From the NCBI RefSeq assembly GCF_026109735.1, contig NZ_CP069620.1, positions 1,674,001 to 1,738,000 on the forward strand: a stretch of 64,000 nt of DNA. The letters run 5' to 3'. This DNA is from Salinimicrobium tongyeongense (lineage in GTDB: Bacteria; Bacteroidota; Bacteroidia; Flavobacteriales; Flavobacteriaceae). Shown here piece after piece: positions 1 through 50,555 of the stretch. The first letter of the stretch is position 1. Each line of letters opens with the position of its first letter. The position numbers were made by a program, and so were the translations under genes. The notes below the pieces were generated by a model, which was not told the DNA's origin, searched no databases, and was given only the letters and a program-made list of their open reading frames with translations.

Positions 1-160
1 TATGACGCTTTTGCCCGGAGACATTATTTCAACAGGTACTCCATTTGGTGTAGGAATGGGTTTTAAACCTCAAAGATACCTAAGACCCGGAGATGTTGTA
101 GAATTGGGAATTGAAGGCTTGGGAACATCAAAGCAAACTGCCAGAGCCTACAAAGAATAA
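1..160 (+). CDS. Fumarylacetoacetate hydrolase family protein, C-terminal end (partial)
   Basis: Only the last 53 or so codons are in the window, read in the frame beginning at base 2. They contain the family C-terminal signature [16 protein letters not shown] followed by a basic/hydrophobic tail ([13 protein letters not shown]). In L-fucose operons this family includes 2,4-diketo-3-deoxy-L-fuconate hydrolase, which splits the C6 acid to pyruvate and L-lactate. That role is inferred here from the fuconolactonase three bases downstream and the lactate-oxidising LutABC genes further along. The true start lies outside the window. Confidence 0.8.
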
Positions 161-163
161 ATA

Positions 164-988
164 ATGAAAATTGACAGTCATCAACACTTTTGGTCCTATA
201 ATCCACATCGGGAGAGTTGGATTACCGATGATATGTCCGGTATAAGGAGGGATTTCTTTCCTAAAGACTTGGAGCCTTTACTTCGGCAGAACAAATTTGA
301 TGGTTGTATTGCTGTACAGGCAAATGACACTGAAGCAGAATCTCAGTTTTTACTGGATCTTGCAGCTCATAATGATTTCATTAAAGGCGTGGTGGGATGG
401 GTAGATCTTACGGCCGAAAGCTGTGAAGAACGATTGTCTTTTTTTTCTCAAAACTCCTTATTTAAAGGAATAAGATATACACTTCAAAAAGAAAAGCCCG
501 ATTTTATCCTAAACCCTCTTTTTAAAAGGGGAATTTCTCTTTTGTCTAAATTCAATCTTACTTTCGATCTACTTGTACTTGAACATCAACTGCCGGAAGT
601 TATCCAACTTGTAAAAGAATTTCCTGCCCAACCCTTTGTGCTGGATCATATGGCTAAACCTCAAGTTAGTAAGGGTCTCTCCTATGATTGGATAGAGAAT
701 ATAAAATTATTAAGTAGTTATAAGAATGTCTATTGTAAAGTATCAGGATTTTTAACTGAGACAGAGGACTTTAAGTGGCTAAAGAACAATTTTAATCCTT
801 TTTTTGATGTAGTAAGCGAAGCTTTTGGTGAGAACAGATTGATGTATGGGTCCGATTGGCCGGTATGTCTCGCTGCCGGAAGTTATGCAGATACGCTGGA
901 AATAGTGGAGGATTATTTCTATACTCAGGAAAATGGTTTATTTAAAAAGCTAATGGGTATAAATGCAGAAAAATTTTATCATTTATGA
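164..988 (+). CDS. L-fuconolactonase-like amidohydrolase (COG3618)
   Basis: This 274-residue amidohydrolase_2 protein has the N-terminal metal motif DSHQHFW (residues 4-10), the internal LDHMAKP motif and the C-terminal YGSDWPV motif (Asp231). COG3618 members hydrolyse sugar-acid lactones such as L-fucono-1,5-lactone to the open acid. No signal peptide is seen, so it is cytoplasmic. It starts 3 bases after the upstream FAH-family gene and its stop overlaps the next start by 4 bases (ATGA), so it is co-translated within the fucose operon. A rhamnonolactonase or 4-sulfomuconolactonase role is possible from family alone, but the context favours fuconolactone. Confidence 0.85.
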   Translation: MKIDSHQHFWSYNPHRESWITDDMSGIRRDFFPKDLEPLLRQNKFDGCIAVQANDTEAESQFLLDLAAHNDFIKGVVGWVDLTAESCEERLSFFSQNSLFKGIRYTLQKEKPDFILNPLFKRGISLLSKFNLTFDLLVLEHQLPEVIQLVKEFPAQPFVLDHMAKPQVSKGLSYDWIENIKLLSSYKNVYCKVSGFLTETEDFKWLKNNFNPFFDVVSEAFGENRLMYGSDWPVCLAAGSYADTLEIVEDYFYTQENGLFKKLMGINAEKFYHL

Positions 989-3393
989 GGAGAAAGATTA
1001 TTTTTTCTGTTTTGGTAGTTCTAAGCTTCTGGTTATCTATGAAAGAAGCGAACGCTCAAAACTTGACAGATTCAATTCCCAAGCATATACTGTGGTATGA
1101 TACCCCTGCAAGCGAGTGGTTGGAGGCATTACCTATAGGAAATGGTAGAATAGGAGCCATGGTCTTTGGAGATCCAAAAAATGAAAGGATTCAGTTAAAT
1201 GAAGACTCCATGTGGCCGGGAGGGCCTGACTGGGGAAATGCTAAAGGTAATCCAGAAGATTTGCAATATATTCGAGATCTTATTGAAGAGGGCCATATTG
1301 AAAAGGCAGATAAAGAGATTGTAGAGCGGTTTTCATATAAGGGTATAGTTCGATCTTACCAAACTTTAGGAGATCTGTACATCGATTTTCACGAACGTGG
1401 GACTGTAGAAAATTATAAGCGTCTTTTAAATCTAAATACGGCTGAGGTGGTGATCAGCTATACTTCAGAGGGTTCAGCATATTATCAAAAGGTATTTACC
1501 AGCGCACCAGATGATGTACTTATTGTTGAATTAGGAACGAATGCAGAAAGTGGGATGAATTTAACTTTGAGGTTAGATCGCCCGGAAGATGAGGGGCGTC
1601 CCACAGTGAGTATAAGCAACCCCAATTCTTCTGAAATTGCAATGAAAGGTGTGGTGACACAATACGGTGGGAGGGTACATTCTCAACCAGCACCCTTAGA
1701 TTATGGAGTCCAATTTGAAACTGTATTGAAAACAGATCATGAAGGGGGAACAGTGACACCAAAAGATGGAACCCTTATTTTACAAGGGGTGAAAAAAGCC
1801 ACAATTAAACTTGTTGCAAATACTTCATTTTACACCAAAGATTTTCAAAATAGAAACAGGGAAGTTTTAGATCGTTTATTGGGAGTAGGGTATGAAAAAC
1901 TTTACCAAAGACATGTACAGGAACATCAAAAATATTTTAACAGGGTTCAACTCCAACTGGGTAAAGAGAAAAGCAGCAACTTACCAACAGACCTTCGGCT
2001 GCAAAACTTAGCGAAGGGAGATGAAGATCTAGACCTGGTATCAGATCTGTTTCAATTTGGGAGGTACCTTTTGATCTCATCTTCTAGACCGGGGACCAAC
2101 CCGGCAAATCTCCAGGGATTGTGGAACGAGAACCTTGCGGCACCGTGGAATGCAGATTATCATCTTAATGTTAATTTACAAATGAACTACTGGCCCGCCG
2201 AAGTGACTAACCTAAGTGAGTTTCATCAGCCATTATTCGATTTTACTGATAGGCTTATTGAGAGAGGCCGAATTACCGCCAGGGAACAGTATGGTATAGA
2301 GAGAGGAGCTGTAGCGCATCAGGCGACAGATCTTTGGGCTTCGGCTTACATGCGAGCAGAACAACCTTACTGGGGCAGCTGGATTCATGGAGGAGGCTGG
2401 TTGGCTCAACATTATTGGGAACATTATAACTTTACCCGCGATAGGGAATTTTTGGAGGAGCGGGCATATCCTGCCATTAAGTCTTTTGCGGAATTTTATC
2501 TGGACTGGCTGGTATGGGATAAAAAATCTAAGAAGTGGGTTTCATTTCCAGAAACCTCACCCGAAAACTCTTATATAAATGAAGAAGGGAAAAAAGCGGC
2601 AGTTTCATTTGGAAGTGCTATGGGCCATCAAATTATAGGTGAGGTCTTTGACAATGTATTGACAGCCGCAGAGATATTAAATATTGAAGATGATTTTATC
2701 GCAGAGGTTCGGGAGAAAAATAAGTCACTTTTTCCCGGGATTGTGGTGGGGCCAGATAATCGACTCCTAGAGTGGAATGAAGCCTATGAAGAAACAGAAA
2801 AGGGACATAGACATCTTTCTCACCTGTATGCACTTCATCCGGGTAATGATATTACCCACGCAACCCCACATGCTTTTGCTGCAGCAAGAAATTCTATTGA
2901 TTTTAGATTAAAACATGGTGGTGCCGGTACAGGCTGGAGCCGGGCATGGATGATTAATTTTGATGCACGCTTACTAGATGGAGAATCAGCAAAAAGTAAT
3001 GTTGATAAATTCATGCAGATATCCCTGGCAAAGAATCTATTCGATTTGCATCCTCCTTTTCAAATTGACGGGAATTTTGGGTTTACAGCGGGAATTGCCG
3101 AAATGCTGCTTCAGTCACATGAAGGTTTTTTGAGGATACTTCCTGCGCTTCCCGAAGCCTGGAAAGATGGGAGTATTTCAGGATTAAAGGCAAGGGGCAA
3201 TACTGAGGTTGATATTATATGGAAAAACGGAAAGTTAAAGGAGTTAATTCTAAAGGCGAATGAAAACAGACTTCAGAAGATTGTATATGCGGGAAGAGAG
3301 GTAAAAGTTGACTTACCTGAAGGAAAAAAAGTGCGGCTTAACGCTAAACTTCAAATAAAAAATAGCACTTATCAAAAGAAAAGAAGGTTGTAA
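985..3393 (+). CDS. GH95 alpha-L-fucosidase (alpha-1,2 type)
   Basis: This 802-residue secreted enzyme has an N-terminal signal peptide ending near NAQN (residue 25). The GH95 (alpha/alpha)6 core is recognisable from HLNVNLQMNYWPAE, where Asn395 and Asn397 match the paired catalytic asparagines of Bifidobacterium AfcA. Other marks are FPETSPENSY with Glu527 as likely acid, and QIDGNFGFTAGIAEML with Asp695. The family cleaves Fuc-alpha-1,2-Gal caps by inversion; some members act on alpha-L-galactose. It overlaps the lactonase by 4 bases. It would supply free L-fucose from glycan termini to the permease and catabolic genes of the same operon. Confidence 0.93.
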   Translation: MRRKIIFSVLVVLSFWLSMKEANAQNLTDSIPKHILWYDTPASEWLEALPIGNGRIGAMVFGDPKNERIQLNEDSMWPGGPDWGNAKGNPEDLQYIRDLIEEGHIEKADKEIVERFSYKGIVRSYQTLGDLYIDFHERGTVENYKRLLNLNTAEVVISYTSEGSAYYQKVFTSAPDDVLIVELGTNAESGMNLTLRLDRPEDEGRPTVSISNPNSSEIAMKGVVTQYGGRVHSQPAPLDYGVQFETVLKTDHEGGTVTPKDGTLILQGVKKATIKLVANTSFYTKDFQNRNREVLDRLLGVGYEKLYQRHVQEHQKYFNRVQLQLGKEKSSNLPTDLRLQNLAKGDEDLDLVSDLFQFGRYLLISSSRPGTNPANLQGLWNENLAAPWNADYHLNVNLQMNYWPAEVTNLSEFHQPLFDFTDRLIERGRITAREQYGIERGAVAHQATDLWASAYMRAEQPYWGSWIHGGGWLAQHYWEHYNFTRDREFLEERAYPAIKSFAEFYLDWLVWDKKSKKWVSFPETSPENSYINEEGKKAAVSFGSAMGHQIIGEVFDNVLTAAEILNIEDDFIAEVREKNKSLFPGIVVGPDNRLLEWNEAYEETEKGHRHLSHLYALHPGNDITHATPHAFAAARNSIDFRLKHGGAGTGWSRAWMINFDARLLDGESAKSNVDKFMQISLAKNLFDLHPPFQIDGNFGFTAGIAEMLLQSHEGFLRILPALPEAWKDGSISGLKARGNTEVDIIWKNGKLKELILKANENRLQKIVYAGREVKVDLPEGKKVRLNAKLQIKNSTYQKKRRL

Positions 3394-3406: not shown

Positions 3407-5512
3407 ATGAATTTACTACATCGATTGAGTCTTATAGGCTATTTCTTTTTGTTTATTAATCTTTTACAGGCACAGGAGATACCTGAACCTGTGGGCCCTC
3501 TTCCTTCCCAACGTCAGTTAAACTGGCAGGAAATGGAATATTACGCTTTTATTCATTTCAATATGAACACCTTTACAAACCGTGAATGGGGAGAAGGAGG
3601 AGAATCACCTGAACAATTTAATCCCACAGAATTAGATGTGCGGCAGTGGGCAAAAGTGGTAAAGGAGGCTGGTATGAAGGGAATAATAATAACTGCAAAA
3701 CATCATGACGGGTTTTGTCTCTGGCCTTCAGAAACGACAGAACATTCTGTAAAAAACTCCCCATGGAAAAGTGGAGAGGGAGATCTTATAAAAGAACTTG
3801 CAGAAGTTTGTGAAGAATTTGATCTAAAATTTGGTGTCTATCTTTCTCCATGGGACAGGAATCATGCACAATATGGTAAAGAGGAATATGTTGACGTATT
3901 TCACAAACAATTGGAAGAACTAGTCACTAATTACGGAACCCTTTTTGAAATATGGTTTGATGGTGCAAACGGTGGTACGGGATATTACGGAGGTGCCAAT
4001 GAAAACCGGAAAATAGATCATAGAAGTTACTATCAATGGGATAAGGTATATTCCATAGTTAGAACGCATCAGCCAGATGCTGTGATTTTTGGAGATAATG
4101 GCCCAGATATTAGATGGATAGGGAATGAAGAAGGTATAGCGGGTAAAACAAATTGGTCCCTAATTCGTAAAGCCGAATTATATGCAGGATCGGGTAAACA
4201 TAAAGAATTGCAGTACGGGCATGTCGATGGTACCCATTGGGTACCAGGAGAGGCTGATGTTTCTATTAGGCCGGGTTGGTACTATCATCCGAAGGAGGAT
4301 CACTTGGTAAAATCTCTTCCACATTTGCTGGACATCTATTACGGATCTGTAGGGCGAAATGCCTCCCTTCTTTTAAATATTCCGGTAGACAGGAGAGGGC
4401 TAATTCATGAAAACGATGTAAAGCAGTTGATAAAACTCAGGGAAAAGCTGGATGAAGATTTTGAAAATAATCTGGCTCAGAATTTAGAAGTGAGTGCAAG
4501 TAAAGTAAGAAATAATAACCCAAAATTTTCTGCAAAAAACACCATAGACGGTAAGAAGGGAACCTACTGGTCTCCTGGTAAAAACGAAATTAAAAGTTCT
4601 CTTACGTTAGATTTTGGTAAAGATGTTGTTTTTAATAGATTCCTGGTACAGGAGTATATTCCTCTTGGACAGAGGGTAAAATCTTTCACTATAGAAGGCC
4701 TGGTTAATGGGGAATGGCATGAAATAGATCGCCAAACAACCATAGGCTATAAAAGAATTTTGAGGTTTGACCCAATTAAAGCATCTGCTCTAAGACTAAA
4801 TATCCTGGATTCCAAATCCAGTCCTTTAATATCGAATATTGAAGTGTATAATGCTCCCGCATTGTTGGTAGCTCCTGAAGTTACCAGATCAAAAAAAGGA
4901 GTGATTACCCTGCAGGTTCCCGATGAAAATGTGCATATCTATTATACTCTAGACGGAACAGAACCCAATCATAATTCTTACAGGTACACTGAAGTTATTG
5001 CCGGAGGCCAACCAATTACCTTGAACGCAATTGCTTATGACCCCGTAAGCGGAAAATACAGTGAATCAAAAAAGGTGAATTTTGATATCCCGAAAACTAA
5101 ATGGAAAGTTATAGATGTTACTTCCGGTGATATTGAAGAGGCTTCCAAAATTATTGATGAAGATAAAAATACATGGTGGACAGCAAAAAAAAATAAGGAG
5201 CTGCCGCAGGAAGTGGTTGTTGATTTAGGTAAGAATTATCTTCTTCAAGGTTTTATTTACCAGCCATCTCATAATAAATGGTCCTTTGGAACTATCTCCA
5301 ATTATGTATTTGAAGTTAGTGTAGACAATAAAAAATGGATTAGAACAGCTTCAGGTGAATTTGGCAACATTCGTAACAACCCTATTGAGCAAAAGGTAAG
5401 TTTTCAACCTATTAAAGCAAGATACATCAAGCTTAAAAGTATAAAAAATACAGATGACAGCGGTGCTATTTCTATTGGAGAACTAAGTGTAATAACAGTA
5501 AATCAGAAATAA
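3407..5512 (+). CDS. GH29 alpha-L-fucosidase with two F5/8 type C domains
   Basis: This 701-residue secreted protein has a signal peptide ending around LLQAQ. The GH29 barrel (about 25-340) has HFNMNTF, TAKHHDGFCLWPS and the nucleophile region EIWFDGANG (Asp185). After it come a discoidin-like domain (about 350-480), a chitobiase C-terminal-like segment (VHIYYTLDGTEPN, about 500-560) and a second discoidin-like domain (about 565-695). The architecture and FDGAN motif resemble the branched-sugar alpha-1,3/1,4-fucosidases (GH29 subfamily B). That specificity is inferred. It begins 13 bases after the GH95 gene, so the pair covers different fucose linkages. Confidence 0.93.
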   Translation: MNLLHRLSLIGYFFLFINLLQAQEIPEPVGPLPSQRQLNWQEMEYYAFIHFNMNTFTNREWGEGGESPEQFNPTELDVRQWAKVVKEAGMKGIIITAKHHDGFCLWPSETTEHSVKNSPWKSGEGDLIKELAEVCEEFDLKFGVYLSPWDRNHAQYGKEEYVDVFHKQLEELVTNYGTLFEIWFDGANGGTGYYGGANENRKIDHRSYYQWDKVYSIVRTHQPDAVIFGDNGPDIRWIGNEEGIAGKTNWSLIRKAELYAGSGKHKELQYGHVDGTHWVPGEADVSIRPGWYYHPKEDHLVKSLPHLLDIYYGSVGRNASLLLNIPVDRRGLIHENDVKQLIKLREKLDEDFENNLAQNLEVSASKVRNNNPKFSAKNTIDGKKGTYWSPGKNEIKSSLTLDFGKDVVFNRFLVQEYIPLGQRVKSFTIEGLVNGEWHEIDRQTTIGYKRILRFDPIKASALRLNILDSKSSPLISNIEVYNAPALLVAPEVTRSKKGVITLQVPDENVHIYYTLDGTEPNHNSYRYTEVIAGGQPITLNAIAYDPVSGKYSESKKVNFDIPKTKWKVIDVTSGDIEEASKIIDEDKNTWWTAKKNKELPQEVVVDLGKNYLLQGFIYQPSHNKWSFGTISNYVFEVSVDNKKWIRTASGEFGNIRNNPIEQKVSFQPIKARYIKLKSIKNTDDSGAISIGELSVITVNQK

Positions 5513-5513: not shown

Positions 5514-6296
5514 ATGGACTTAGGCCTTACAAATAAAGTGATATTGATAACCGGTGGAACGCAGGGAATTGGAGGAGCTATCTCCAGAAGCTTAGCTTTC
5601 GAAGGAGGCATTCCGGTTTTTATTGGGAGAAATAAAGAAGTAGGAGAACTGCTGGAATCTGAGCTATTAAATAAAGGCCAAAAAGCCTTTTTTTTACAGG
5701 GAGATCTCAATCATAAGGGTACTTGTAAAGAGCTTGTGCTAACTGTAAAAGAGAGGTATGGGAAAATAGATGCATTGGTGAACAATGCCGGGGCAAATGA
5801 TGGTATAGGTCTTGAAAATGGTAATCCAGAGAGCTTTACAAAATCAGTATTCAACAATTTGAATCACTATTATGAAATGGCGCATTTTTGCCTACCTTAT
5901 TTAAAAGCTTCTAAGGGTAATATCATTAACATTAGTTCAAAAGTAGCTCTCACAGGCCAGGGTAACACCTCGGGTTATGCAGCTGCTAAAGGTGCCCAAT
6001 TAGCGCTTACAAGAGAATGGGCTGCAGAGCTTTTACCTTTTGACATTCGAGTAAATGCTATTTTACCTGCAGAAGTTCTCACCCCTTTGTATAAAAATTG
6101 GCTGAGTTCTTTCGATGATCCCGAGAGTAAGTTGAAAAGTATTACCTCAAAAATACCGTTAGGGAAACGTATGACCACTGCTGAAGAGGTTGCAGATCTT
6201 GCTGTTTTTCTTTTATCTAAAAGATCTTCTCATACCACAGGACAGTTTCTGTTCGTGGATGGCGGGTATGTACACCTGGACAGGTCTTTAACTTAA
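5514..6296 (+). CDS. SDR-family dehydrogenase, probable fucose-pathway step
   Basis: This 260-residue classical short-chain dehydrogenase has the nucleotide-binding motif TGGTQGIG (residues 13-20), NNAG, a catalytic Ser in NISSK, and YAAAK with Tyr155 and Lys159. It is cytoplasmic and starts one base after the GH29 stop. In non-phosphorylative L-fucose routes two SDR steps exist: L-fucose to fuconolactone, and 2-keto-3-deoxy-L-fuconate to its 2,4-diketo form. Sequence alone does not tell which one this is. The other dehydrogenase and the fuconate dehydratase are not in this window and may lie upstream. Confidence 0.85.
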   Translation: MDLGLTNKVILITGGTQGIGGAISRSLAFEGGIPVFIGRNKEVGELLESELLNKGQKAFFLQGDLNHKGTCKELVLTVKERYGKIDALVNNAGANDGIGLENGNPESFTKSVFNNLNHYYEMAHFCLPYLKASKGNIINISSKVALTGQGNTSGYAAAKGAQLALTREWAAELLPFDIRVNAILPAEVLTPLYKNWLSSFDDPESKLKSITSKIPLGKRMTTAEEVADLAVFLLSKRSSHTTGQFLFVDGGYVHLDRSLT

Positions 6297-6305
6297 TGTG
6301 CCGTG

Positions 6306-7622
6306 ATGAATAAAACTCAGGCACCAGTAATTTCAAGGAAAATTCTACTTCCTTTCATTCTAATCACTTTCTTATTTGCTCTGTGGGGCTTCGCTAATGA
6401 TATAACAAACCCTATGGTTTCAGCTTTTAAAAAGATACTAGAACTAAATAACTTTCAGGCTTCATTGGTGCAATTGGCATTTTATGGCGGATATTTTACC
6501 ATGGCACTACCTGCAGCTATTTTTGTTAACAGGTATTCTTATAAAAAAGGTATACTACTGGGGCTTGCACTTTATGCTTGTGGAGCATTACTTTTTTTTC
6601 CTGCTGCTGCCTTTCAGGAATACTATTTCTTTCTCACAGCACTTTACGTTCTCACGTTTGGGTTGGCTTTTCTTGAGACCACAGCCAATCCTTATATTTT
6701 ATCTATGGGTGCAGAAGAGACTGCTACGCAAAGGTTGAATCTCTCACAAGCATTTAATCCATTGGGAGCTTTAGGAGGATTAATCGTAGCTCAAAATTTT
6801 ATTCTGAATGCTTTGGAATCAGATGATTTGAATGAACAGGGAGAAGGGATCTACAGCACATTGCCTGAAGATGCACGTGAGTTAATACGAATCTCAGATC
6901 TGGAAGTCATTCGAAATCCGTATGTACTTCTGGGAATTGTGGTAATTATATTTTTTGTTCTCATCCTCTTGGTAAAAATGCCTAAAGATGAAAATAAAGA
7001 ATCCCGGGTACCTGTGGGCAAGTCTTTAAAAAGGCTTTTTAAACATCCAAAATTTTATGGAGGAGTGTTTGCTCAGGCATTTTACGTAGGGGCACAAATT
7101 ATGTGCTGGACATATATTTATCAGTACGCAGAATCAATAGGAATTCCAAATAACAAAGCAGTGAATTATGCCATTTTTGCGCTCGTTCTATTTCTTGTAG
7201 GCAGGTGGATTGGAACAGGCTTACTTAGATACTTTCACGCAGGTAAACTATTGTTCCTGTTTGCGCTTGGAGCTATTCTCTGTAGTGCTATGACCATCAT
7301 TATTTCAGGTCATATAGGATTATATGCACTTACAGGAATATCTTTTTTTATGTCTATAATGTTTCCCACTATTTACGGCATTGCTTTAGAAGGTCGTGGA
7401 GAAGATGCCAAGTTCGGTGCTGCTTTTTTAGTAATGGCCATAGTTGGTGGTGCCTTAATGCCAAGTTGTCAGGGACTTATTCTTGATATGGGAGGGGCAG
7501 GATATAACGATATTAATATTTTGGGTGTGCCAGAGATCAATTTCTCTTTCATTCTACCTACTGTTTGTTTTATTATCGTCGGGCTTTATGGAAGATATAT
7601 ATATCAACAACGTCTAAATTAA
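6306..7622 (+). CDS. fucP: L-fucose permease, MFS (FucP family)
   Basis: This 438-residue major-facilitator protein has about 12 hydrophobic segments. FucP hallmarks include FALWGFANDITNPMVSAFK near the N-terminus, ANPYILSMG and SQAFNPLGALGG. FucP imports L-fucose with protons across the inner membrane. An in-frame GTG lies just before ATG 6306; the ATG is chosen as the start. It follows the SDR gene by 9 bases. The glucose/galactose transporter GluP is a close relative, but the surrounding fucosidases and catabolic enzymes make fucose the likely substrate. Confidence 0.9.
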   Translation: MNKTQAPVISRKILLPFILITFLFALWGFANDITNPMVSAFKKILELNNFQASLVQLAFYGGYFTMALPAAIFVNRYSYKKGILLGLALYACGALLFFPAAAFQEYYFFLTALYVLTFGLAFLETTANPYILSMGAEETATQRLNLSQAFNPLGALGGLIVAQNFILNALESDDLNEQGEGIYSTLPEDARELIRISDLEVIRNPYVLLGIVVIIFFVLILLVKMPKDENKESRVPVGKSLKRLFKHPKFYGGVFAQAFYVGAQIMCWTYIYQYAESIGIPNNKAVNYAIFALVLFLVGRWIGTGLLRYFHAGKLLFLFALGAILCSAMTIIISGHIGLYALTGISFFMSIMFPTIYGIALEGRGEDAKFGAAFLVMAIVGGALMPSCQGLILDMGGAGYNDINILGVPEINFSFILPTVCFIIVGLYGRYIYQQRLN

Positions 7623-7626: not shown

Positions 7627-7962
7627 ATGAAAAGATATGTTCTTACCTGTGAACTTAAAGATGATCCTATTCTGAAAAAGGAGTATGTAGATCATCATAA
7701 AAAAGTGTGGCCTGAAATTGTTGACAGCATCAAGAAAAGTGGTATTCTCCATATGGAAATCTTCAATCTTGAGACTAGTTTGGTTATGATCATTGATACT
7801 ACTCCGGAATTTTCTTTTGAAGAAAAAGCAAAAATGGATGCGAAAAACGAGAAGGTCCAACGTTGGGAAGAATTGATGTGGAAGTATCAGAAAAAGATAC
7901 CATCAGCACAGCCTGGTCAAAAATGGGTTTTAATGAACAAAATTTTTTCTTTACCACAGTAG
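7627..7962 (+). CDS. RhaM-type sugar mutarotase (probable L-fucose mutarotase)
   Basis: This 111-residue cytoplasmic protein of the RhaM/DUF718 family shows YVDHHKKVWPEI (His24 in the usual general-acid position), HMEIFNLETSLVMIID and a C-terminal KWVLMNKIFSL. The family interconverts alpha and beta anomers of 6-deoxy-L-sugars, L-rhamnose in the type case. Its place 4 bases after fucP and before lactate oxidation genes suggests it speeds anomer exchange of imported L-fucose for the dehydrogenase. It is not related in sequence to the FucU fold. Confidence 0.85.
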   Translation: MKRYVLTCELKDDPILKKEYVDHHKKVWPEIVDSIKKSGILHMEIFNLETSLVMIIDTTPEFSFEEKAKMDAKNEKVQRWEELMWKYQKKIPSAQPGQKWVLMNKIFSLPQ

Positions 7963-10627: not shown

Positions 10628-10736
10628 TGGATGATTTTCAATTCCTACTTATAAAAACAGAAATTAAGATATGTTAAGCTGATTAAATTTTATTCATCCT
10701 CTTTATATATTTTTAGAAGAAGGATAAAATGTTCTT

Positions 10737-39584: not shown

Positions 39585-39596
39585 AAATCATGATTT

Positions 39597-41600: not shown

Positions 41601-44195
41601 ATGAAAATAACCAAATTACTTATATTCTTCAGCTTACTTCTTTCGGTGAGTCATTTATCTGCCCAGAAAAGACAGGGTAATATTGTAGAATATTTTGGAA
41701 AAGAAAAAGTTGAAGATATCAATGAAGGAGAGGTAATCCATCTCTTTAAGGAAGGTTTAATCCTTTCGAGGAAGAGACTTCCTGGTGAAGCAAAATCAGT
41801 TCTAAGTGATCCATTTTTTGCAAATTTACTTCAGGATAAAACCATGGTTATCTCTGAAGGAGAAGAAGCTTTTGCTGATGTTGACACTAAGGCGGCTAAA
41901 TGGGAAAGAATTAAGGTAAGTGAAAACAGTGAATTCGATAATGATGGCTTTAGAAATGGCTATCTCTACCTGGAGTATGATTCAGATTCAGAAAAGACAG
42001 TGATATTCGAAGCTTCTGGGCATACAGCAGCCTTAATTAATGGTCTGCCTCACGAAGGAGATCATTATGATTTCGGTTGGAGTCTTATTCCCGTAAAACT
42101 TCAGAAAGGGAAAAATGAATTTATTTTAACCGGAGGCAGGTTTTCTCATATGCGTGCAAGACTATTAAAGCCCAACCAACCGGTACAGTTTACCACAAGA
42201 GACATGACTCTGCCAGATGTTCAGAGAGAAGACAAAGAAGCTTTAATAGGTGCAATCAGGATTATGAACAGCAATGATTCGTGGCTCAAGGACGCTAAGA
42301 TAGTAACAATTGCAGGGTCTAATGAAAATGAAACTAATGTACCCTCTGTTTCTCCCTTAAATGTGAGAAAGGTGCCTTTTAGCATTCCTGTTCCCGAAAT
42401 TCTTCCTGCAGGTGATACGTTTAGGGTAGTTATCCAGTTAAAGGATAGGAGAGGGAAAATAATAGATTCTAAAAATCTTGAATTGGCAATAAAATCAAAA
42501 CATGCCCATCATAAAAAGACCTTCATTAGTGATATTGATGGAAGTGTGCAGTACTATAGTGTTGCTCCATCACTTACAAAAGATAAAGAACAACAGGCTT
42601 TATTTCTTTCTGTTCATGGTGCTTCAGTAGAAGCTGTTAATCAAGCCAACGCCTATAAACAAAAAGACTGGGGCCATTTGGTGGCTCCTACCAATCGGAG
42701 GCCCTTTGGTTTCGCATGGGAAGATTGGGGGCGCTTGGATGCACTGGAAGTACTGGAGCATGCCGAGGAGCTATTTAAGACAGATCCGCAGCATACTTAC
42801 CTAACTGGCCATTCAATGGGGGGACACGGCACATGGTATTTGGGTGTTACATATCCAGATAGGTTTGCGGCCATCGCACCTGCTGCGGGATACCCAGATT
42901 TACTCGAGTACAGGCACAGTTTTATTAAAAGGGCTGCAGAAAGACCTGAAGAATACTTTGAAAGGTTCGGTATGAGTAAATCTGAATTCCTTAAAGGTAT
43001 ATCTGCTGGCTATGAAAAGGAATCTGACCGGTTAATGGATTCCATGGTTAGAAGAGCTGGAAATCCAAGTAGAACCCTGAAGCTGGAAAACAATTATCTT
43101 CACTTCGGAATTTATGTGCTTCACGGAGAAGCAGATTCGGTAGTACCTACTTTTATTGCTCGCGAAATGCGCGAACGTTTAGGGAAATTTCACAATGATT
43201 TTGCTTATTATGAATATCCAGATGGAACCCACTGGTATGGAGATCACAGTGTAGATTGGCCTCTTATTTTCGATTTCTTTAAGGCACGAAAAATAGAATC
43301 TCCGGAAGAAATAGATGAAATTGAATTTTCTACCGGTTCTCCCGGCGTTTCTGCAACTTCTCATTTTATCACTATTTATCAACAGGAAAAACCTTTTGAG
43401 ATTAGCTCTTTTAGGTTTGATAAAGAAGACGGTAAGGTGTCTTTAGAGACAGAGAACGTAGAAGTTTTAAAACTGAATTTTAAGGAGATGGGTGTCTCTT
43501 CACTTGACACTTTGAGTATTGACAATGAAATTCTCCCCATCAAAACATCAACAAAAAATGCCTTTTTTAGAAAGAATGCAGGTGTTTGGGAGATTGCTTC
43601 AACACCTTCAGTTGCAGAAAAAGGACCACACCGGTACGGCGGATTCAAGGATGCTTTCAGAAATAACATGGTTTTCGTTTTTGCAACAAAAGGCTCAAAG
43701 GAGGAGAATGAATGGTACTACAATAGAGCAAAATTTGATGCAGAAAAGTTCTATTACAGGGCAAACGGCAATGTTGAGTTAGTAAGGGATGTAGATTTTA
43801 GGGCTGATAAATACAGTGACAGGAACGTGATTCTTTATGGAAATAAAAGCAATAATGCTGCCTGGAACAGGCTCTTAAAAGACTCTCCCATTCAGGTCAC
43901 AAAAAATAAGCTTCAGGTTGGAGATAAAACCTTTTCTGGGGAACAATGGGGTGCTTATTTTATTTTCCCAAGAAGAGATAGTGATATAGCTAGTGTAGGT
44001 GTGATAACTGCAACAGGTGAGAGAGGAATGAAAGGGGCATATGCAAATGACTACCTTGAAAATGGCACCTTTTTTCCTGATGTTATGATTTTTGATGATA
44101 CAATGATGAAAAATGGTATTTCGGGACTTAAGTATAGTGGGTTTTTTGATAATTCATGGAATGTTGAAGGCGGAGACTTCTATTGGAGAGAATAA
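41601..44195 (+). CDS. Secreted alpha/beta-hydrolase (S9-like), function unknown
   Basis: This 864-residue protein has a signal peptide ending HLSAQ. The first 300 residues are beta-rich, with a fold I do not recognise. The middle is an alpha/beta-hydrolase with TGHSMGGHGTW (nucleophile Ser405), HGEADSVVP (Asp512) and YPDGTHWYGDH (His544). The last 300 residues form another uncharacterised region with a Rossmann-like patch (RNVILYGNKSNNAAW). Prolyl-oligopeptidase-like peptidases and carbohydrate esterases share this core. In a glycoprotein locus either a peptidase or an O-acetyl esterase would make sense. Substrate not assignable. Confidence 0.8.
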   Translation: MKITKLLIFFSLLLSVSHLSAQKRQGNIVEYFGKEKVEDINEGEVIHLFKEGLILSRKRLPGEAKSVLSDPFFANLLQDKTMVISEGEEAFADVDTKAAKWERIKVSENSEFDNDGFRNGYLYLEYDSDSEKTVIFEASGHTAALINGLPHEGDHYDFGWSLIPVKLQKGKNEFILTGGRFSHMRARLLKPNQPVQFTTRDMTLPDVQREDKEALIGAIRIMNSNDSWLKDAKIVTIAGSNENETNVPSVSPLNVRKVPFSIPVPEILPAGDTFRVVIQLKDRRGKIIDSKNLELAIKSKHAHHKKTFISDIDGSVQYYSVAPSLTKDKEQQALFLSVHGASVEAVNQANAYKQKDWGHLVAPTNRRPFGFAWEDWGRLDALEVLEHAEELFKTDPQHTYLTGHSMGGHGTWYLGVTYPDRFAAIAPAAGYPDLLEYRHSFIKRAAERPEEYFERFGMSKSEFLKGISAGYEKESDRLMDSMVRRAGNPSRTLKLENNYLHFGIYVLHGEADSVVPTFIAREMRERLGKFHNDFAYYEYPDGTHWYGDHSVDWPLIFDFFKARKIESPEEIDEIEFSTGSPGVSATSHFITIYQQEKPFEISSFRFDKEDGKVSLETENVEVLKLNFKEMGVSSLDTLSIDNEILPIKTSTKNAFFRKNAGVWEIASTPSVAEKGPHRYGGFKDAFRNNMVFVFATKGSKEENEWYYNRAKFDAEKFYYRANGNVELVRDVDFRADKYSDRNVILYGNKSNNAAWNRLLKDSPIQVTKNKLQVGDKTFSGEQWGAYFIFPRRDSDIASVGVITATGERGMKGAYANDYLENGTFFPDVMIFDDTMMKNGISGLKYSGFFDNSWNVEGGDFYWRE

Positions 44196-44379: not shown

Positions 44380-46779
44380 ATGAGATTTTCTTTTTCCTAC
44401 ATTACCATCACAGTTTTTTTCTTGTGTATTTTTTTTCCCGTGGCTGCTATAAATGCACAGCAGGTAAAAACAATGTCAATATATAAAGATCCTTCAAGGA
44501 GTGTTGATGAAAGAGTAAACGATCTTTTAAAGAGAATGACCCTGGACGAAAAAGTAGGGCAGTTATCCACACTTTTGGGATGGCCCATGTATCAAAAAGT
44601 TAATGACCATACGGTAGAAGTAAGCCAGGAATTTAAAGACGCAGTAAAAGATCGAAAAATTGGTTCACTATGGGGAACACTTCGAGCTGACCCCTGGACA
44701 AAAAAAAACCTGGAGAATGGGTTAAACCCTCTGCTTGCAGCCAGGCTTACAAATGAATTGCAAAGGTATGTCATTGAGAACAGTCGCCTTGGAATTCCCG
44801 TTTTTTTGGCAGAAGAATGTATGCACGGTCACATGGCTATTGGCACAACCGTCTTTCCTTCGGCCATTGGGCAGGGAAGCACCTGGAATCCAGACTTGCT
44901 TTATGAAATGGCTTCTGCTATCGCACTTGAAACTCGGGCACAGGGAGCACATATTGGGTACGGACCTATTCTCGATTTGGCCCGTGAACCAAGATGGTCT
45001 CGGGTTGAAGAAACCTTTGGGGAAGATCCTTATTTAAATGCACAACTTGGCATTGCGGTGGTAAAAGGTTTTCAGGGGGAAGATATTTCTAGTGGTAAGA
45101 AGGTCATTTCTACTTTAAAGCATTTTGCGGCATATGGTGTTTCTCAAGGGGGGCACAATGGTGCTGCGGTGATCATTGGAGACAGAGATCTTCAGAATTA
45201 TTTATATCCCTTTGAACAGGCAGTAAAGGCAGGAGCACTTTCTGTAATGACTGCCTATAGCTCCATTGACGGCATACCAAGTACGGCTCACGATAAACTT
45301 CTGGACCAGACCTTAAAGGAAAAGTGGGGATTTGATGGGTTTGTAGTTTCAGACCTGGGAAGCATTGAAGGCTTGGTAGGTAGTCACAACGTGGCTAAAT
45401 CTCCTCAAGATGCTGCAGCAATGGCAATTAATGCAGGTGTAGACGTAGATTTAGGAGGTAATGGGTTTGAAGCAGCTTTAATTGAGGCGGTAAAGAATAA
45501 TCAGGTTTCAGTTTCAGTAGTAGATTCTGCAGTAAGTCGGGTTCTCGCTTTGAAATTCAGGATGGGTCTCTTTGAAAATCCTTTTGTTGACACTTTAAAT
45601 GTTGGAAAAAAAGTAAGAAACGAAAAGCACAAAGCCTTGGCAAGGAAGGTAGCACAGCAATCTCTTATTTTACTGAAGAATGAAGGCAAAATTCTCCCTC
45701 TCAACAAAAATGTAAAAAAGGTGGCCGTAATAGGTCCTAATGCGCATAATATATATAACCAGTTAGGAGATTATACCGCGCCTCAACCAGAGGATAATAT
45801 TGTGACAGTATTTAAGGGTATCAAAAATAAACTCCCCGGGGCGCAGGTAACTTATGTAAAAGGAACGGCTATTCGAGACACCACACAAACTGATATTGAA
45901 GCCGCGGTAAAAGTCGCAAAAAATGCAGAAGTCGCAATAGTGGTATTGGGTGGCTCCAGTGCACGTGATTTTAAGACTAAATACATTGAAACCGGTGCTG
46001 CAGTAGTAGAGGATGATCAGGGTATTATTAGTGATATGGAAAGTGGGGAAGGCTATGATAGAGCTACCTTACAGGTAATGGGAAAACAGTTAGAACTTCT
46101 CAAGGCTGTAAAATCTACGGGTACACCCACAGTTTTAATTACCATAAAAGGCAGGCCTTTGCTTTTAAACTGGCCCGCCGAAAATATCCCGGCTATCCTG
46201 GAAGCATGGTACCCCGGCCAGGAGGGTGGTAATGCCATAGCCGATGTACTTTTTGGAGATTACAATCCTTCTGGTAAATTACCAGTATCAGTTCCAAAAT
46301 CTGTAGGTCAATTGCCAGTCTATTATAATCACCTTGTTCCACAGCATCAGGATTATGTTGAAATAGACGCTCAGCCACTTTATCCATTTGGTCATGGCCT
46401 TAGCTATGCTGACTTTGAATATTCAGCGTTGAGTGTGAATGTTCAGGAAAAAGAGCTCCAAACCATTGTTGACGTGCAGTTACAGGTGAAGAATACTGGA
46501 GCAGTGACCGGAGAAGAGGTAGTTCAATTATACGTCAATGATGTGGTGACTAGCGTGGTCACTCCTTCCCGCCAGTTAAAGGATTTTCAAAAAATCTCTA
46601 TTGCTCCGGGAGAAAGCAAAACTGTTAAGCTACAGTTATCTGTAAATGACCTGGCTCTTCTTAATGTTCAAAATCAGCGAACAGTGGAAGCAGGAACTTT
46701 TGAAATTATGATTGGTTCCTCTTCTCAAGATATTCGTTTAAAAGAGGAATTCGAGATTACCAAGTCAATAAAGTTATAG
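44380..46779 (+). CDS. GH3 beta-glycosidase (BglX-like)
   Basis: This 799-residue secreted enzyme has a signal peptide ending AINAQ, a GH3 N-terminal barrel with SRLGIPVFLAEECMHG, KHFAAYG and VVSDLGSIEGL (nucleophile Asp325), a GH3 C-terminal sandwich (KKVAVIGPNAHN) and a fibronectin III-like tail (TGEEVVQLYVNDVV). Members are beta-glucosidases, xylosidases and related exo-enzymes. It lacks the KHFPGHG and Asp-His dyad of GH3 hexosaminidases. Its substrate in an N-glycan setting is unclear; removal of a beta-glucose or beta-galactose is possible. It starts a new run after a hairpin. Confidence 0.92.
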   Translation: MRFSFSYITITVFFLCIFFPVAAINAQQVKTMSIYKDPSRSVDERVNDLLKRMTLDEKVGQLSTLLGWPMYQKVNDHTVEVSQEFKDAVKDRKIGSLWGTLRADPWTKKNLENGLNPLLAARLTNELQRYVIENSRLGIPVFLAEECMHGHMAIGTTVFPSAIGQGSTWNPDLLYEMASAIALETRAQGAHIGYGPILDLAREPRWSRVEETFGEDPYLNAQLGIAVVKGFQGEDISSGKKVISTLKHFAAYGVSQGGHNGAAVIIGDRDLQNYLYPFEQAVKAGALSVMTAYSSIDGIPSTAHDKLLDQTLKEKWGFDGFVVSDLGSIEGLVGSHNVAKSPQDAAAMAINAGVDVDLGGNGFEAALIEAVKNNQVSVSVVDSAVSRVLALKFRMGLFENPFVDTLNVGKKVRNEKHKALARKVAQQSLILLKNEGKILPLNKNVKKVAVIGPNAHNIYNQLGDYTAPQPEDNIVTVFKGIKNKLPGAQVTYVKGTAIRDTTQTDIEAAVKVAKNAEVAIVVLGGSSARDFKTKYIETGAAVVEDDQGIISDMESGEGYDRATLQVMGKQLELLKAVKSTGTPTVLITIKGRPLLLNWPAENIPAILEAWYPGQEGGNAIADVLFGDYNPSGKLPVSVPKSVGQLPVYYNHLVPQHQDYVEIDAQPLYPFGHGLSYADFEYSALSVNVQEKELQTIVDVQLQVKNTGAVTGEEVVQLYVNDVVTSVVTPSRQLKDFQKISIAPGESKTVKLQLSVNDLALLNVQNQRTVEAGTFEIMIGSSSQDIRLKEEFEITKSIKL

Positions 46780-46798: not shown

Positions 46799-48229
46799 AT
46801 GAAAAATAGAACTATAAAGACAATAATACTAGGATTGGTGTGTACCTCATTATCCTATTCTGGCTACGCACAGAAAGATAATGTGCACCAGCGGTCTTCA
46901 GAGTACCAGGCCCCTGTAGATCCTTTAGTAAAAGCTAAACTGGAAAATTGGCGTGATCAAAAGTTCGGAATTTTGATTCACTGGGGAATATACTCTGTAC
47001 CAGGTATCATTGAGTCATGGTCAATTTGTTCTGAAGACTGGATAGAAAGGGATAGTACAATTGCTTATAACGACTACAAGAAGTGGTACTGGAATCTAGA
47101 AAAGGTTTTTAATCCTGTGAATTTTAACCCTGATCAATGGGCCGAAGCGGCTGAGTCTGCAGGAATGAAGTATCTGGTGTTTACTACCAAACATCATGAC
47201 GGTTTCAATATGTTTGATACTCGACAAACAGATTATAAAATAACTGCCGGGCCTTTTAAAAATCATCCCAAAGCGAACGTTACAAAGCACATTTTTGAAG
47301 CTTTCCGGAAAAAAGATTTTATGATTGGTGCTTATTTCTCCAAGCCCGATTGGCATTCCCAATATTATTGGTGGGATAAATATGCCACTCCCAACCGAAA
47401 TAATAATTACGATATCAACAGGTATCCCTGGAGATGGAACAAGTTTAAAGATTTTACTTTTGATCAGCTCTATGAGCTAATGACCGATTATGGATCTATT
47501 GATGTTTTGTGGCTTGATGGAGGATGGGTTAGGCCAAAGGAAACGGTTAACGATGAAGTGAGGGCTTGGGGGGCACCTATTCCGGAATGGAGTCAGGATA
47601 TAGATATGGATAAGATTGCTGCAATGGCCAGAAAGGCCCAGCCGGGAATTATCTTTGCAGATCGTACAGTTCATGGACCTTATGAAAACTATCAAACCCC
47701 AGAGCGGAAAATTCCAGATGTAAAACTTAATTATCCGTGGGAGAGTTGCCTGCCACTTGGCGATAATTGGGGTTATGTTCCTAATGATAATTTTAAAACA
47801 TCTCATGAGGTGATCCATAATCTAATAGAAGTAGTAGCAAAGGGTGGTAATATGTTATTGGGAGTTGGACCAAAATCTGATGGAACTTTACCCCTTGACG
47901 CAGTTGCTATTATGGAGGAGATTGGGGAGTGGCTTGAAAAGAACGGAGAAGCTATTTATAGCACCCGTTCTATGGATTTTTACAACGACGGTACTACCTA
48001 TTTCACCCAGAAAGATGATAAAAAATATGCCATTGTTCTGTTGGAAAAAGGAACAAAAATCCCTAGATCTATTTCCTGGAAAGGGAACTTACCTAAAAAA
48101 GGCAGCAATTTGAAACTTTTAGAAACTGGAGAAGAAGTAAAATGGGAAGTTAGAAATAAAGAAGTTTTTGTCAATTTACCTGCAAAATATAATGGAACAA
48201 CTGCAGCATTGACGTTTTCATTTAATTAA
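46799..48229 (+). CDS. GH29 alpha-L-fucosidase (second, single-domain)
   Basis: This 476-residue secreted enzyme has a signal peptide ending SGYAQ. It shows FGILIHWGIYSVP, FTTKHHDGFNMFDT and DVLWLDGGWV with nucleophile Asp240. There is only a barrel plus a C-terminal beta-sandwich, with no carbohydrate-binding extras, as in broad-specificity GH29 subfamily A enzymes that can take alpha-1,6 core fucose. That linkage is inferred. Together with the GH95 and the multidomain GH29 it gives three fucosidases. It starts 19 bases after the GH3 stop. Confidence 0.93.
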   Translation: MKNRTIKTIILGLVCTSLSYSGYAQKDNVHQRSSEYQAPVDPLVKAKLENWRDQKFGILIHWGIYSVPGIIESWSICSEDWIERDSTIAYNDYKKWYWNLEKVFNPVNFNPDQWAEAAESAGMKYLVFTTKHHDGFNMFDTRQTDYKITAGPFKNHPKANVTKHIFEAFRKKDFMIGAYFSKPDWHSQYYWWDKYATPNRNNNYDINRYPWRWNKFKDFTFDQLYELMTDYGSIDVLWLDGGWVRPKETVNDEVRAWGAPIPEWSQDIDMDKIAAMARKAQPGIIFADRTVHGPYENYQTPERKIPDVKLNYPWESCLPLGDNWGYVPNDNFKTSHEVIHNLIEVVAKGGNMLLGVGPKSDGTLPLDAVAIMEEIGEWLEKNGEAIYSTRSMDFYNDGTTYFTQKDDKKYAIVLLEKGTKIPRSISWKGNLPKKGSNLKLLETGEEVKWEVRNKEVFVNLPAKYNGTTAALTFSFN

Positions 48230-48468: not shown

Positions 48469-49533
48469 ATGATTAAATTTATTGTTATTAATGAAACTTT
48501 ATTTTTCACTTTTAAGCTTTTTTTTCTGCTAATATCTACGGGTATGTGGGCTCAGAATAAAAATAATTCACTTACTATTTTAGAAGAGGAATTTATTTTT
48601 GAGAGGGCTGACTTCCCTCAATGTCATGCTTCAACTATAGAAGTATTGGAAAATGGTGAAATTATTGCTGCCTGGTTTGGGGGAGAATATGAACGGCATC
48701 CTGAAGTGAGTATCTACACCAGTGTTAAATCAAGCTCGGGATGGTCATTACCCCGTAAAGTAGCAGATGGAATAGTGAATGATTCCCTCAACTATCCCAC
48801 CTGGAATCCGGTTCTTTTCAAATCAGATTCAAAAAAATTGTTTCTGTTTTACAAAATTGGGCCTTCCCCTTCACAGTGGTGGGGCATGTACAAAGTTTCA
48901 CAAGATGACGGTAAAACATGGACACTTCCGTTGAGGCTCCCCGATAATATTCTGGGGCCTATTAGAAATAAACCCCTTCAGATCGGTAGTAGGATTATAA
49001 GCCCTTCCAGTGTGGAGAGCTCAGATGGGGAAACCTGGCAATCACATGTAGAAATATCTGAAGACGACGGGGAAACCTGGCGAAAAGTACCTATAGATTC
49101 AATTTCTGATTTCAAAACAATACAACCTGCTATTATTCAATATAATGGCGTATTAAAAGCCTTTTTCCGAAGTGATCAGGATGTTCTAATGGAGAGTTTG
49201 AGCAAAGATCTTGGAGAGAGCTGGACAAAACTGGAAAAAACATCTATTGCTAATCCTAATTCAGGAGTTGATGCTGTCACCTTAGCTAACGGTCATCATT
49301 TATTGGTATACAATCCTTTGAAGAGTGGTAAAGACTGGCACAATGGACGTAATAAGCTATACGTAGCAATATCATCGAATGGAGAGAATTGGAGGCCTAT
49401 TCTAAAACTTGAAGACGAAGTTAAAGGAGAATATAGTTATCCTGCCATTATACAGGATAATAATGGGGATATACACATTACATACACCTATGAGCGTGAA
49501 AGAATAAAATACTTAAAACTAAGATTAAATTAG
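48469..49533 (+). CDS. BNR-repeat neuraminidase-like protein (COG4692 type)
   Basis: This 354-residue secreted beta-propeller has a signal peptide ending GMWAQ. Three Asp-box repeats are visible: SQDDGKTW (about 143), SEDDGETW (about 195) and SKDLGESW (about 245). The opening QCHASTIEVLENGEIIAAWFGG is typical of the predicted-neuraminidase group COG4692. The FRIP-type arginine motif of true GH33 sialidases is not seen, so sialic acid cleavage is doubtful. No sialic acid catabolic genes are in the window. Another exo-glycosidase activity is a fair alternative. Confidence 0.8.
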   Translation: MIKFIVINETLFFTFKLFFLLISTGMWAQNKNNSLTILEEEFIFERADFPQCHASTIEVLENGEIIAAWFGGEYERHPEVSIYTSVKSSSGWSLPRKVADGIVNDSLNYPTWNPVLFKSDSKKLFLFYKIGPSPSQWWGMYKVSQDDGKTWTLPLRLPDNILGPIRNKPLQIGSRIISPSSVESSDGETWQSHVEISEDDGETWRKVPIDSISDFKTIQPAIIQYNGVLKAFFRSDQDVLMESLSKDLGESWTKLEKTSIANPNSGVDAVTLANGHHLLVYNPLKSGKDWHNGRNKLYVAISSNGENWRPILKLEDEVKGEYSYPAIIQDNNGDIHITYTYERERIKYLKLRLN

Positions 49534-49583
49534 TAAGATTGTTACTATAATATGATCAGTAAATATTTACCTAAGTGAACATT

Positions 49584-50555
49584 ATGAAAAGGAGAAATTT
49601 CCTAACAAAAGTTAGTGCAGCCGGTGTTGGTCTGCCATTAATCAACGCAAATGTATTTATGGACCTGCCTCTTTTTGAAAATAAAACAGCATCAGGACCC
49701 ATTAGTGTTACCACCTGGAATTTTGCCGAGGCTAATCGCACTGCAGGAGAGTTGTTGAGCAAAGGCGCATCTGCCCTTGATGCTGTAGAACAGGGAGTAC
49801 GTGTTGAGGAGTCAAATATTAAAAATCAAACTGTTGGAAAGGGAGGAGCGCCAGACAGGGATGGAAACGTGACACTTGATGCCTGTATCATGGCGCCTAA
49901 TGGAAATTTTGGAAGTGTTTGTTTTCTTGAGAATATTGAACATCCTGTCTCTGTAGCACGAAAAGTTATGGAAGAGACTCCGCACAATATGCTGGTTGGT
50001 GAAGGAGCATATCAATTTGCAATAAAACAAGGCTTTGAACCAGTAAATCTTTTAACACCTGAATCAGAAGCTAATTGGGAAAAATGGCTTGAACAAAAGG
50101 AGTATAGACCAATAATAAATATCGAGAATCACGATACTATTGGGATGCTTTGTCTTGATGAAAAGGGAGATATAGCAGGAGCCTGTACTACTTCTGGCCT
50201 GGCTTACAAAATGAGAGGTAGGGTGGGAGATTCGCCCATTATTGGTTCAGGTCTTTTTATTGATAATGAAGTAGGAGGAGCAGTGGCCACAGGTCTTGGA
50301 GAAGAGATCCTTAAGAATGTAAGTACTTTTCTCATAGTTGAACTTATGCGTTCAGGGAAAAGTCCTCAGGAAGCTTGTGAGATTGCTATGGATAGAATAA
50401 TCAAAAAGAATCCTGATTATAAGAATTTCCAGGTAGCATTTATTGCCCTTAATAAAAAAGGGGAAGTTGGCTCTTTCTGTATCCATCCCGGATTTACTTA
50501 TCTTAAATATGAAAATTTAGAAAACAGAGAAATGAAAAGTAAAACTTACTTATAA
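49584..50555 (+). CDS. N4-(beta-N-acetylglucosaminyl)-L-asparaginase (glycosylasparaginase)
   Basis: This 323-residue Ntn-hydrolase has a twin-arginine signal at the N-terminus (KRRNFLTKVSAAG). A GTG at 49575 is in frame, but ATG 49584 places the Tat motif properly. The precursor self-cleaves before the catalytic Thr185 in NHDTIGML. CTTSGLAYKM and RGRVGDSPIIGSG form the substrate pocket. The enzyme hydrolyses the GlcNAc-Asn bond once peptide and outer sugars are gone, giving aspartate and a GlcNAc amine. In a locus that also has PNGase F it covers short glyco-asparagines that PNGase F handles poorly. Confidence 0.93.
   Translation: MKRRNFLTKVSAAGVGLPLINANVFMDLPLFENKTASGPISVTTWNFAEANRTAGELLSKGASALDAVEQGVRVEESNIKNQTVGKGGAPDRDGNVTLDACIMAPNGNFGSVCFLENIEHPVSVARKVMEETPHNMLVGEGAYQFAIKQGFEPVNLLTPESEANWEKWLEQKEYRPIINIENHDTIGMLCLDEKGDIAGACTTSGLAYKMRGRVGDSPIIGSGLFIDNEVGGAVATGLGEEILKNVSTFLIVELMRSGKSPQEACEIAMDRIIKKNPDYKNFQVAFIALNKKGEVGSFCIHPGFTYLKYENLENREMKSKTYL

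Follow-up and report, generated by a model that had tools for sequence, protein, structure and literature searches.

What does a bacterium of marine sediment feed on with a 50-kb run of glycosidase genes that stands beside an L-fucose operon? The stretch in question (hereafter the window) is 64,000 nucleotides long and covers positions 1674001-1738000 of the complete 3.51-Mb genome of Salinimicrobium tongyeongense; its 39 open reading frames (ORFs), antisense ORFs excluded, were scanned with Pfam and NCBIfam models. The original prediction, made from the letters alone, had read positions 1-50555 as one programme for dismantling N-glycoproteins, and every family that it named was found over its Pfam cut-off and in the place it had been given. 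We put at about 75% the probability that the window holds an N-glycan utilisation locus joined to a complete L-fucose operon. Gene content, family placement and synteny are the observations behind this reading, and from them we infer substrates, step order, compartments, transporter cargo and regulation. Coordinates are window positions, on the forward strand unless marked reverse.

Release and trimming of N-glycans

The genome as a whole has six GH92 matches, and all but one fall in the window (GH92a to GH92e, starting at 10729, 15142, 22447, 31512 and 33796), and a pair of SusC and SusD homologues (36171-41456; Pfam) stands with carbohydrate-active enzymes, the gene content that defines a polysaccharide utilisation locus (PUL). 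For comparison, 35 loci were found by their PNGase, and 13 other genomes were mapped at length, representing 12 of these loci and one Salinimicrobium metagenome-assembled genome. The clustering exceeds chance because much of the gene order recurs in other genera.

N-glycans as the substrate, as originally predicted, are supported by three proteins: a PNGase with the group-1 residue, a GH130 nearest to a mannosyl-chitobiose phosphorylase and an asparaginase nearest to a glycosylasparaginase. The PNGase F-type amidase (30292-31482; PF09112 and PF09113 for the N and C domains, E 1.9e-56 and 1.5e-50) scored 392 bits against 4qhb and 382 against 3ks7, both of which we take to be Bacteroides group-1 PNGase structures, compared with 213 for PNGF-II and 192 for 7zgn; PNGase F itself is not among the five sequences that matched. 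The protein has 396 residues, with its domains from residue 27 onward and no N-terminal bowl-like domain. Its signature residue, Asp195, aligns with a Gly of PNGF-II, apparently G380, and is conserved in all 34 aligned homologues (34 of the 35 PNGase loci). The residue at the Glu118 position is Asp in group-1 enzymes and Gly in group-2 enzymes (Crouch 2022, PMC9522356). Judged by sequence, the window enzyme belongs to group 1 of the PNGase F family, a membership that, as the scheme is drawn, also calls for release of N-glycans other than those with core alpha-1,3-fucose. Its nearest named relative, at 95% identity, is in Salinimicrobium profundisediminis.

The asparaginase (49575-50555), with a twin arginine in its N terminus, scored 369 bits against the glycosylasparaginase 3ljq, versus 124 for an uncharacterised chain and 117 for the best named asparaginase or isoaspartyl peptidase. 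The beta chains of solved enzymes align from Thr188, the nucleophile Thr at the chain junction, and the sequence features of the protein are those of a glycosylasparaginase. Among solved GH130 enzymes, the window GH130 (19274-20254), which has no signal-like N terminus, is closest to UHGB_MP (4udg; 513.6 bits, versus 444 for the next kind), an enzyme that a review classes as a mannopyranosyl-chitobiose phosphorylase. This closeness makes it a GH130 of predicted UhgbMP type, and because its nearest relative is a mannosyl-chitobiose phosphorylase it could act on what PNGase leaves.

Among the mannosidases, all assigned by Pfam, GH92a (10729-13029) and GH92b (15142-17400) are 68% identical. GH92d (31512-33788) has as its nearest solved relative the alpha-1,2-mannosidase 2wvx (1071 bits), presumably BT3990, and GH92e (33796-36003) is divergent, with 386 bits to 7zgm at best. 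The nearest solved relative of GH92c (22447-24675) is 6f8z (646 bits), which is BT3130, compared as an alpha-1,3-mannosidase in Crouch 2022 (PMC9522356). A LacZ-type GH2 (24675-27893; Pfam), a GH20 beta-hexosaminidase (27901-30234; Pfam) and a GH29 (46799-48229; E 1.4e-98) stand in the same block.

We propose that PNGase would free glycans from proteins and that the glycosylasparaginase would handle N-acetylglucosamine (GlcNAc) still joined to Asn. Outside the cytosol, the glycans would be trimmed by the fucosidases, GH2, GH20, the five GH92s and a GH3 that probably acts on beta-1,2-xylose; the mannosyl-chitobiose core would then be imported via an SSF symporter and phosphorolysed by GH130.

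GH92-rich loci can also serve mannans (Krueger 2019; Kappelmann 2019), which counts against this proposal, and the window might instead target fungal or algal alpha-mannan with PNGase and glycosylasparaginase as accessories. The five GH92s would suit such a role, and similar sulfatase-free GH92 PULs have been filed as alpha-mannose-rich (PMC6794258). Nevertheless, we think a mannan locus very improbable: no GH76, GH125, GH38 or sulfatase domain was found in the 39 scanned ORFs (GH76, GH125, GH38 and GH18 were not searched for elsewhere in the genome), and a mannan locus would have little use for PNGase, glycosylasparaginase and a mannosyl-chitobiose-type GH130. The idea that GH92-rich PULs may be aimed at N-glycosylated glycoproteins was raised in Kappelmann 2019, and N-glycan genes are among those counted in a 2024 bloom study. 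For loci of this type, the evidence favours the glycoprotein idea.

Which N-glycans are used is a further question. The original prediction limited them to complex and high-mannose types, a limit that seems too narrow given a GH3 that points to beta-1,2-xylose too. This candidate beta-1,2-xylosidase (44380-46779) is 53% identical to the best of the Phocaeicola massiliensis GH3s, whereas the two matches that follow in that genome reach 41% (with a TAG in its interior) and 39%. The best match has GH2, sulfatase and AraC neighbours, a gene order that suggests it is B035DRAFT_00995, which removes beta-1,2-xylose from plant N-glycan after one mannose is gone (Crouch 2022, PMC9522356). N-glycan beta-1,2-xylosidases are characterised by nearness to B035DRAFT_00995 and by no activity on beta-1,4-xylobiose. 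The main target might then be a xylosylated plant-like N-glycan of land plants or green algae, like that of the system by which gut Bacteroides break down plant N-glycans, and 7zgm, the best solved match of GH92e, is probably the P. massiliensis plant N-glycan GH92. We consider this unlikely, however, in view of a PNGase that has the group-1 residue and lacks the bowl-like domain, since the group-1 enzyme BF0811 failed to release plant N-glycans (Crouch 2022, PMC9522356). The window GH2 is just 23% identical to the GH2 of the P. massiliensis locus over 302 residues, and of the 13 other mapped genomes S. profundisediminis, the sister species, is the only one in which GH3 was found. Plant glycoproteins as the sole target are disfavoured by the group-1 signature. 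The preferred reading remains an N-glycan locus whose substrates may include xylosylated glycans.

The BNR_2 propeller protein (48469-49533; Pfam) had been counted in the N-glycan programme, which its features do not support. GH33 sialidases are marked by a RIP motif and an Arg triad. The BNR_2 protein has three Asp boxes but no RIP-like motif was found in it, and its matches to sialidases are weak and partial (best 34 bits); therefore sialic acid release is unsupported, and we do not regard the protein as a canonical sialidase. It is present in one of the 13 other mapped genomes, that of S. profundisediminis.

An N-glycan utilisation locus is a known kind of system; less expected here are two uncharacterised conserved genes and a fucose operon coupled to lactate oxidation. 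The plant N-glycan system of Bacteroides/Phocaeicola massiliensis (PMC9522356) has PNGase, GH92, GH3, GH29, GH2 and GH20 acting one after another, as predicted for the window, and its GH3 is homologous, but its PNGase is of group 2 and the loci are scattered, whereas a group-1-type PNGase lies here in one block. Relative to that system, the window is further set apart by GH130, the SSF symporter, CBM9-like and GHL10-like genes, a glycosylasparaginase within the block and the adjoining fucose operon. Marine sulfatase-free GH92-rich PULs (Krueger 2019, PMC6794258) likewise hold GH92, GH130 and GH20, and sometimes CBM9, GH3 and GH2. They have GH18, which is absent from the window, and the available text, which files them as alpha-mannose-rich, makes no mention of PNGase, glycosylasparaginase or a GHL10-like protein, all present here. 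The Runella zeae PNGase operon (PMC12381499) combines PNGase with fucosidases, an alpha-mannosidase and an asparaginase, but it has GH18 and its described gene set is far smaller.

A conserved core with two uncharacterised genes

The list of the original prediction had passed over the GH3, the SSF symporter, the CBM9-like and GHL10-like genes, a LytTR/histidine-kinase pair and an 864-residue alpha/beta-hydrolase. The conserved core of the locus runs from the LytTR response regulator and histidine kinase (13225-15008, reverse strand, divergent to GH92b; Pfam) through GH92, the SSF sodium:solute symporter (17400-19277; Pfam SSF) and GH130 to a CBM9-like secreted protein (20256-21317; CBM9_1 35.6 bits, cut-off 23.4) and a GHL10-like protein with a lipobox (21330-22445; GHL10 37.1 bits, cut-off 27.9; DUF4015 37.4, cut-off 27). 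The SSF-GH130-CBM9-GHL10 order was found in 10 of the 13 other mapped genomes, and six of the 13 have the LytTR/kinase genes next to the core (one with the kinase alone), several of the stretches ending before that place. Six further loci were chosen from genomes without a strong PNGase; all six have the order GH92-SSF-GH130-CBM9-GHL10, and five have LytTR/kinase, the sixth stretch stopping before that place. Wherever a mapped or further locus carries SSF, the symporter adjoins GH130, and its cargo would be mannosyl-chitobiose. Comparison with other flavobacteria, which had been named as a check on the original prediction, bears out the core order; the BNR and GH3 genes recur, among the 13 mapped genomes, in S. 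profundisediminis alone.

Of 199 Flavobacteriaceae genomes, 44 have the GHL10-like protein (E <= 1e-20). Genomes with a strong PNGase (E <= 1e-45) number 17, and 12 of these have it, versus 3.8 expected (hypergeometric P ~1e-5, kinship ignored); it was not found in the other five. Among 30 GHL10-like loci retrieved with ~1.5 kb of flank, the window included, the neighbours were CBM9 in 28, GH130 in 17, GH92c in 13 and the glycosylasparaginase in 7, and longer stretches of the two loci without an adjacent CBM9 place it beyond a GH18 gene. By Pfam, a GH18 gene with a DGVDLDWE motif lies between the CBM9-like and GHL10-like genes in two of the six further loci (L194:12909-14072 and L199:10470-11636); tblastn found GH18 homologues in other loci and none in the window. 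The CBM9-like and GHL10-like genes of the core thus persist with or without PNGase or GH18. Since the GHL10 gene is kept whether or not GH18 is there, it seems tied to the shared N-glycan core and not to one mode of release. We do not favour the view that the protein simply stands in for a GH18 endoglycosidase, because GH18 genes adjoin it in several loci.

Seven acidic residues are invariant across 38 GHL10-like sequences; an AlphaFold model gave a low-confidence barrel (pLDDT 63.7, three sequences) that is too uncertain for catalytic residues. DigH presumably belongs to the GHL10 family. Cwp19 (GHL10) is reported to be a lytic transglycosylase on peptidoglycan and DigH a peptidoglycan glycosyl hydrolase, while DogH (GHL10) is reported to be active on starch, with mannan named as a substrate, yet no mannose product detected. 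By analogy, cleavage of the chitobiose bond by the GHL10-like protein would fit Cwp19 and DigH, and cleavage of the alpha-1,6-mannose bond would fit DogH. For core alpha-1,6-mannose, no enzyme was reported as of Crouch 2022 (PMC9522356); a review of 2023 points to GH38 enzymes from B. longum for it. None of the papers listed for GHL10 or DUF187 beside N-glycans names either family, which does not prove absence from print.

We suggest that the GHL10-like protein is a candidate N-glycan-core glycosidase and that the two uncharacterised core genes may supply a missing step. A bolder proposal, which we hold tentatively and think distinctly more apt to fail than to stand, is that the CBM9-like/GHL10-like pair forms a new N-glycan-core enzyme unit, acting on the Man-alpha-1,6 branch or the chitobiose bond together with SSF and GH130 in a Flavobacteriaceae module under two-component control, and that those GH92 PULs without sulfatases that bloom studies have classed as alpha-mannose-rich would then largely be N-glycoprotein loci.

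The fucose operon and its possible tie to the N-glycan block

The region extends at both ends beyond the 1-50555 first given to it: the start of the fucose operon lies outside the window, ~5 kb upstream, and from 50633 a NagB/NagC-like set follows. A divergent AraC gene precedes the operon, whose upstream part encodes a GD_AH-type dehydratase, a short-chain dehydrogenase (SDR), a third GH29 and an FAH hydrolase, identified by domain scan. Within the window follow a candidate L-fucono-1,5-lactonase of the amidohydrolase 2 type (164-988; Pfam Amidohydro_2; NF052480 233.5 bits, under the cut-off of 400), a candidate GH95 alpha-L-fucosidase (985-3393; Pfam GH95 catalytic domain, E 1e-163), a GH29 with F5/8 type C domains (3407-5512; domain scan), L-fucose dehydrogenase (5514-6296; NF052481 411 bits, cut-off 300), the L-fucose permease FucP (6303-7622; TIGR00885 516 bits, cut-off 280.4), a sugar mutarotase of the rhaM family (7627-7962; Pfam rhaM, E 8.9e-29) and LutA, LutB and LutC for L-lactate oxidation (7964-10627; Pfam CCG, LUD and Fer4; TIGR00273 402 bits, under the cut-off of 444.8; gene order).

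All six route-3 families (FucM, A, B, C, F and G) therefore stand in one run of genes, the SDR and dehydratase being assigned by family and place. The non-phosphorylating L-fucose route 3 (PMC11199699) likewise has mutarotase, dehydrogenase, lactonase, dehydratase, KDF dehydrogenase and hydrolase, and yields pyruvate and L-lactate; the window differs in that LutABC ends the operon and fucosidase genes lie inside it. With the upstream genes included, the gene set for the predicted path from L-fucose to pyruvate and lactate, and on to LutABC, is complete. Freed fucose would be taken up by FucP. The mutarotase, the dehydrogenase, the lactonase, the dehydratase, the SDR dehydrogenase and the FAH hydrolase would in turn convert it to pyruvate and L-lactate, the latter then being oxidised to pyruvate by LutABC.

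Of 397 Flavobacteriaceae genomes, 31 have LutB (E <= 1e-60) and 119 have fucose dehydrogenase above cut-off. Where both occur (21 genomes), they lie <8 kb apart in eight, the window included, compared with ~0.1 expected over 27 pairs if placement were random, kinship ignored. LutB neighbourhoods were read in the window, seven linked genomes and four contrast genomes, the other 19 LutB genomes being left out. LutABC lies among non-phosphorylating fucose genes in all seven other linked loci (L176-L182), and beside FAH and SDR in six; one contrast genome (G002) has LutABC beside dehydratase, SDR and FAH genes with fucose dehydrogenase elsewhere, and the other three have no such link. Within the genus, a full-length LutB match occurs in one of 12 Salinimicrobium genomes, this one, and a close FucP relative in two (two of the 12 are <80% complete). 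No published description of LutABC paired with fucose genes was found in the part of the literature looked at; an Endozoicomonas paper describes a lutABC operon separate from rhamnose genes.

Do the N-glycan block and the fucose operon form one programme, as had been claimed? Of 25 other genomes searched for PNGase and fucose dehydrogenase, six have them no more than 40 kb apart on the same contig (two Salegentibacter and four of the Wocania/Gaetbulibacter/Flaviramulus group, perhaps two events), and in four of these six the dehydratase gene directly follows PNGase; fucose dehydrogenase over cut-off was not found in 3 of the 25. This linkage indicates that the parts repeatedly adjoin but not that they are one regulon, the fucose genes having AraC and the N-glycan genes LytTR/kinase. 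In S. profundisediminis, the genes from GH92a to the glycosylasparaginase are colinear with those of the window (82-99% identical). The GlcNAc cluster, which the window genome has upstream of its fucose operon, starts there ~4 kb after the glycosylasparaginase.

Several further observations weigh against a joined N-glycan and fucose locus. no dehydratase, SDR, FAH, FucP, mutarotase or LutABC gene was found in the 40 kb read of S. profundisediminis, its fucose genes being on another contig; 19 of the 25 other PNGase genomes show no linkage within 40 kb on one contig, draft contigs among them; the three Salegentibacter PNGase loci, as far as they were read, lack the SSF-GH130-CBM9-GHL10 core; the NCBIfam scores of LutB, the lactonase and the FAH hydrolase are all under cut-off; and none of the tested-enzyme relatives of the locus covers core alpha-1,6-mannose or sialic acid. 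Searches within the genus found no LutB and no close FucP relative in the S. profundisediminis genome, whose contig C11 (L080-L081) has a reduced fucose gene set with a partial lactonase gene between GH29 and GH95.

The window could accordingly hold two independent neighbours without shared regulation, an N-glycan locus and a general L-fucose operon for fucoidan, mucin-like or other fucosides. The separate regulators, the GH95 and GH29 genes that the fucose operon carries for itself, the N-glycan block retained alone in S. profundisediminis and the 19 unlinked genomes all agree with this; the six linked genomes from two further lineages, and the dehydratase gene immediately after PNGase in four of them, do not. 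We give it a serious chance, though one a little short of even. On the reading we prefer, of repeated association, neighbourhood is the part of the one-programme claim that stands, and the fucose operon, which has an AraC gene to itself, counts as a partner that can be parted from the N-glycan block.

Flanking genes and wider meaning

Downstream of the glycosylasparaginase, a NagB-like deaminase with a PIG-L domain and a ROK/NagC-like regulator (50633-53854, reverse strand; NF002557 1068 bits, cut-off 384; NagC model 224 bits, under the cut-off of 650) are likely, from their sequences, to be the GlcNAc sink, and GlcNAc would be routed to the NagB-like enzyme. These two genes together with a GHL10 protein, NlpC/P60, a NagX-like acyltransferase-domain protein and a GH3-beta-lactamase fusion (50633-61356) look like a neighbouring region for recycling GlcNAc and peptidoglycan. 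The GlcNAc cluster 6-11 kb upstream of the window (L007:7622-12992) holds ROK, MFS, creatininase-like, GH20 and SIS genes. From 61394 to 64000 lie an LrgA/LrgB pair and then an outer-membrane receptor-like gene that continues past the window end. The 864-residue alpha/beta-hydrolase (41601-44195) has weak S9/esterase matches above cut-off; its relatives adjoin fucose genes in two Salegentibacter genomes (57-58%), and another lies in a Gramella locus (66%). A Bacteroidetes-type promoter pattern gave three matches versus 2.84 expected and was uninformative.

Because a single operon joins the genes for breaking down fucose to those for oxidising lactate, route-3 lactate could be oxidised in the same cell. 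The GHL10-like/CBM9-like pair offers a testable candidate for an N-glycan-core step with few reported enzymes. If our proposal is true, a widespread marine module read as mannan degradation would be one of glycoprotein degradation, which would change what bloom metagenomes say on the turnover of carbon and nitrogen.

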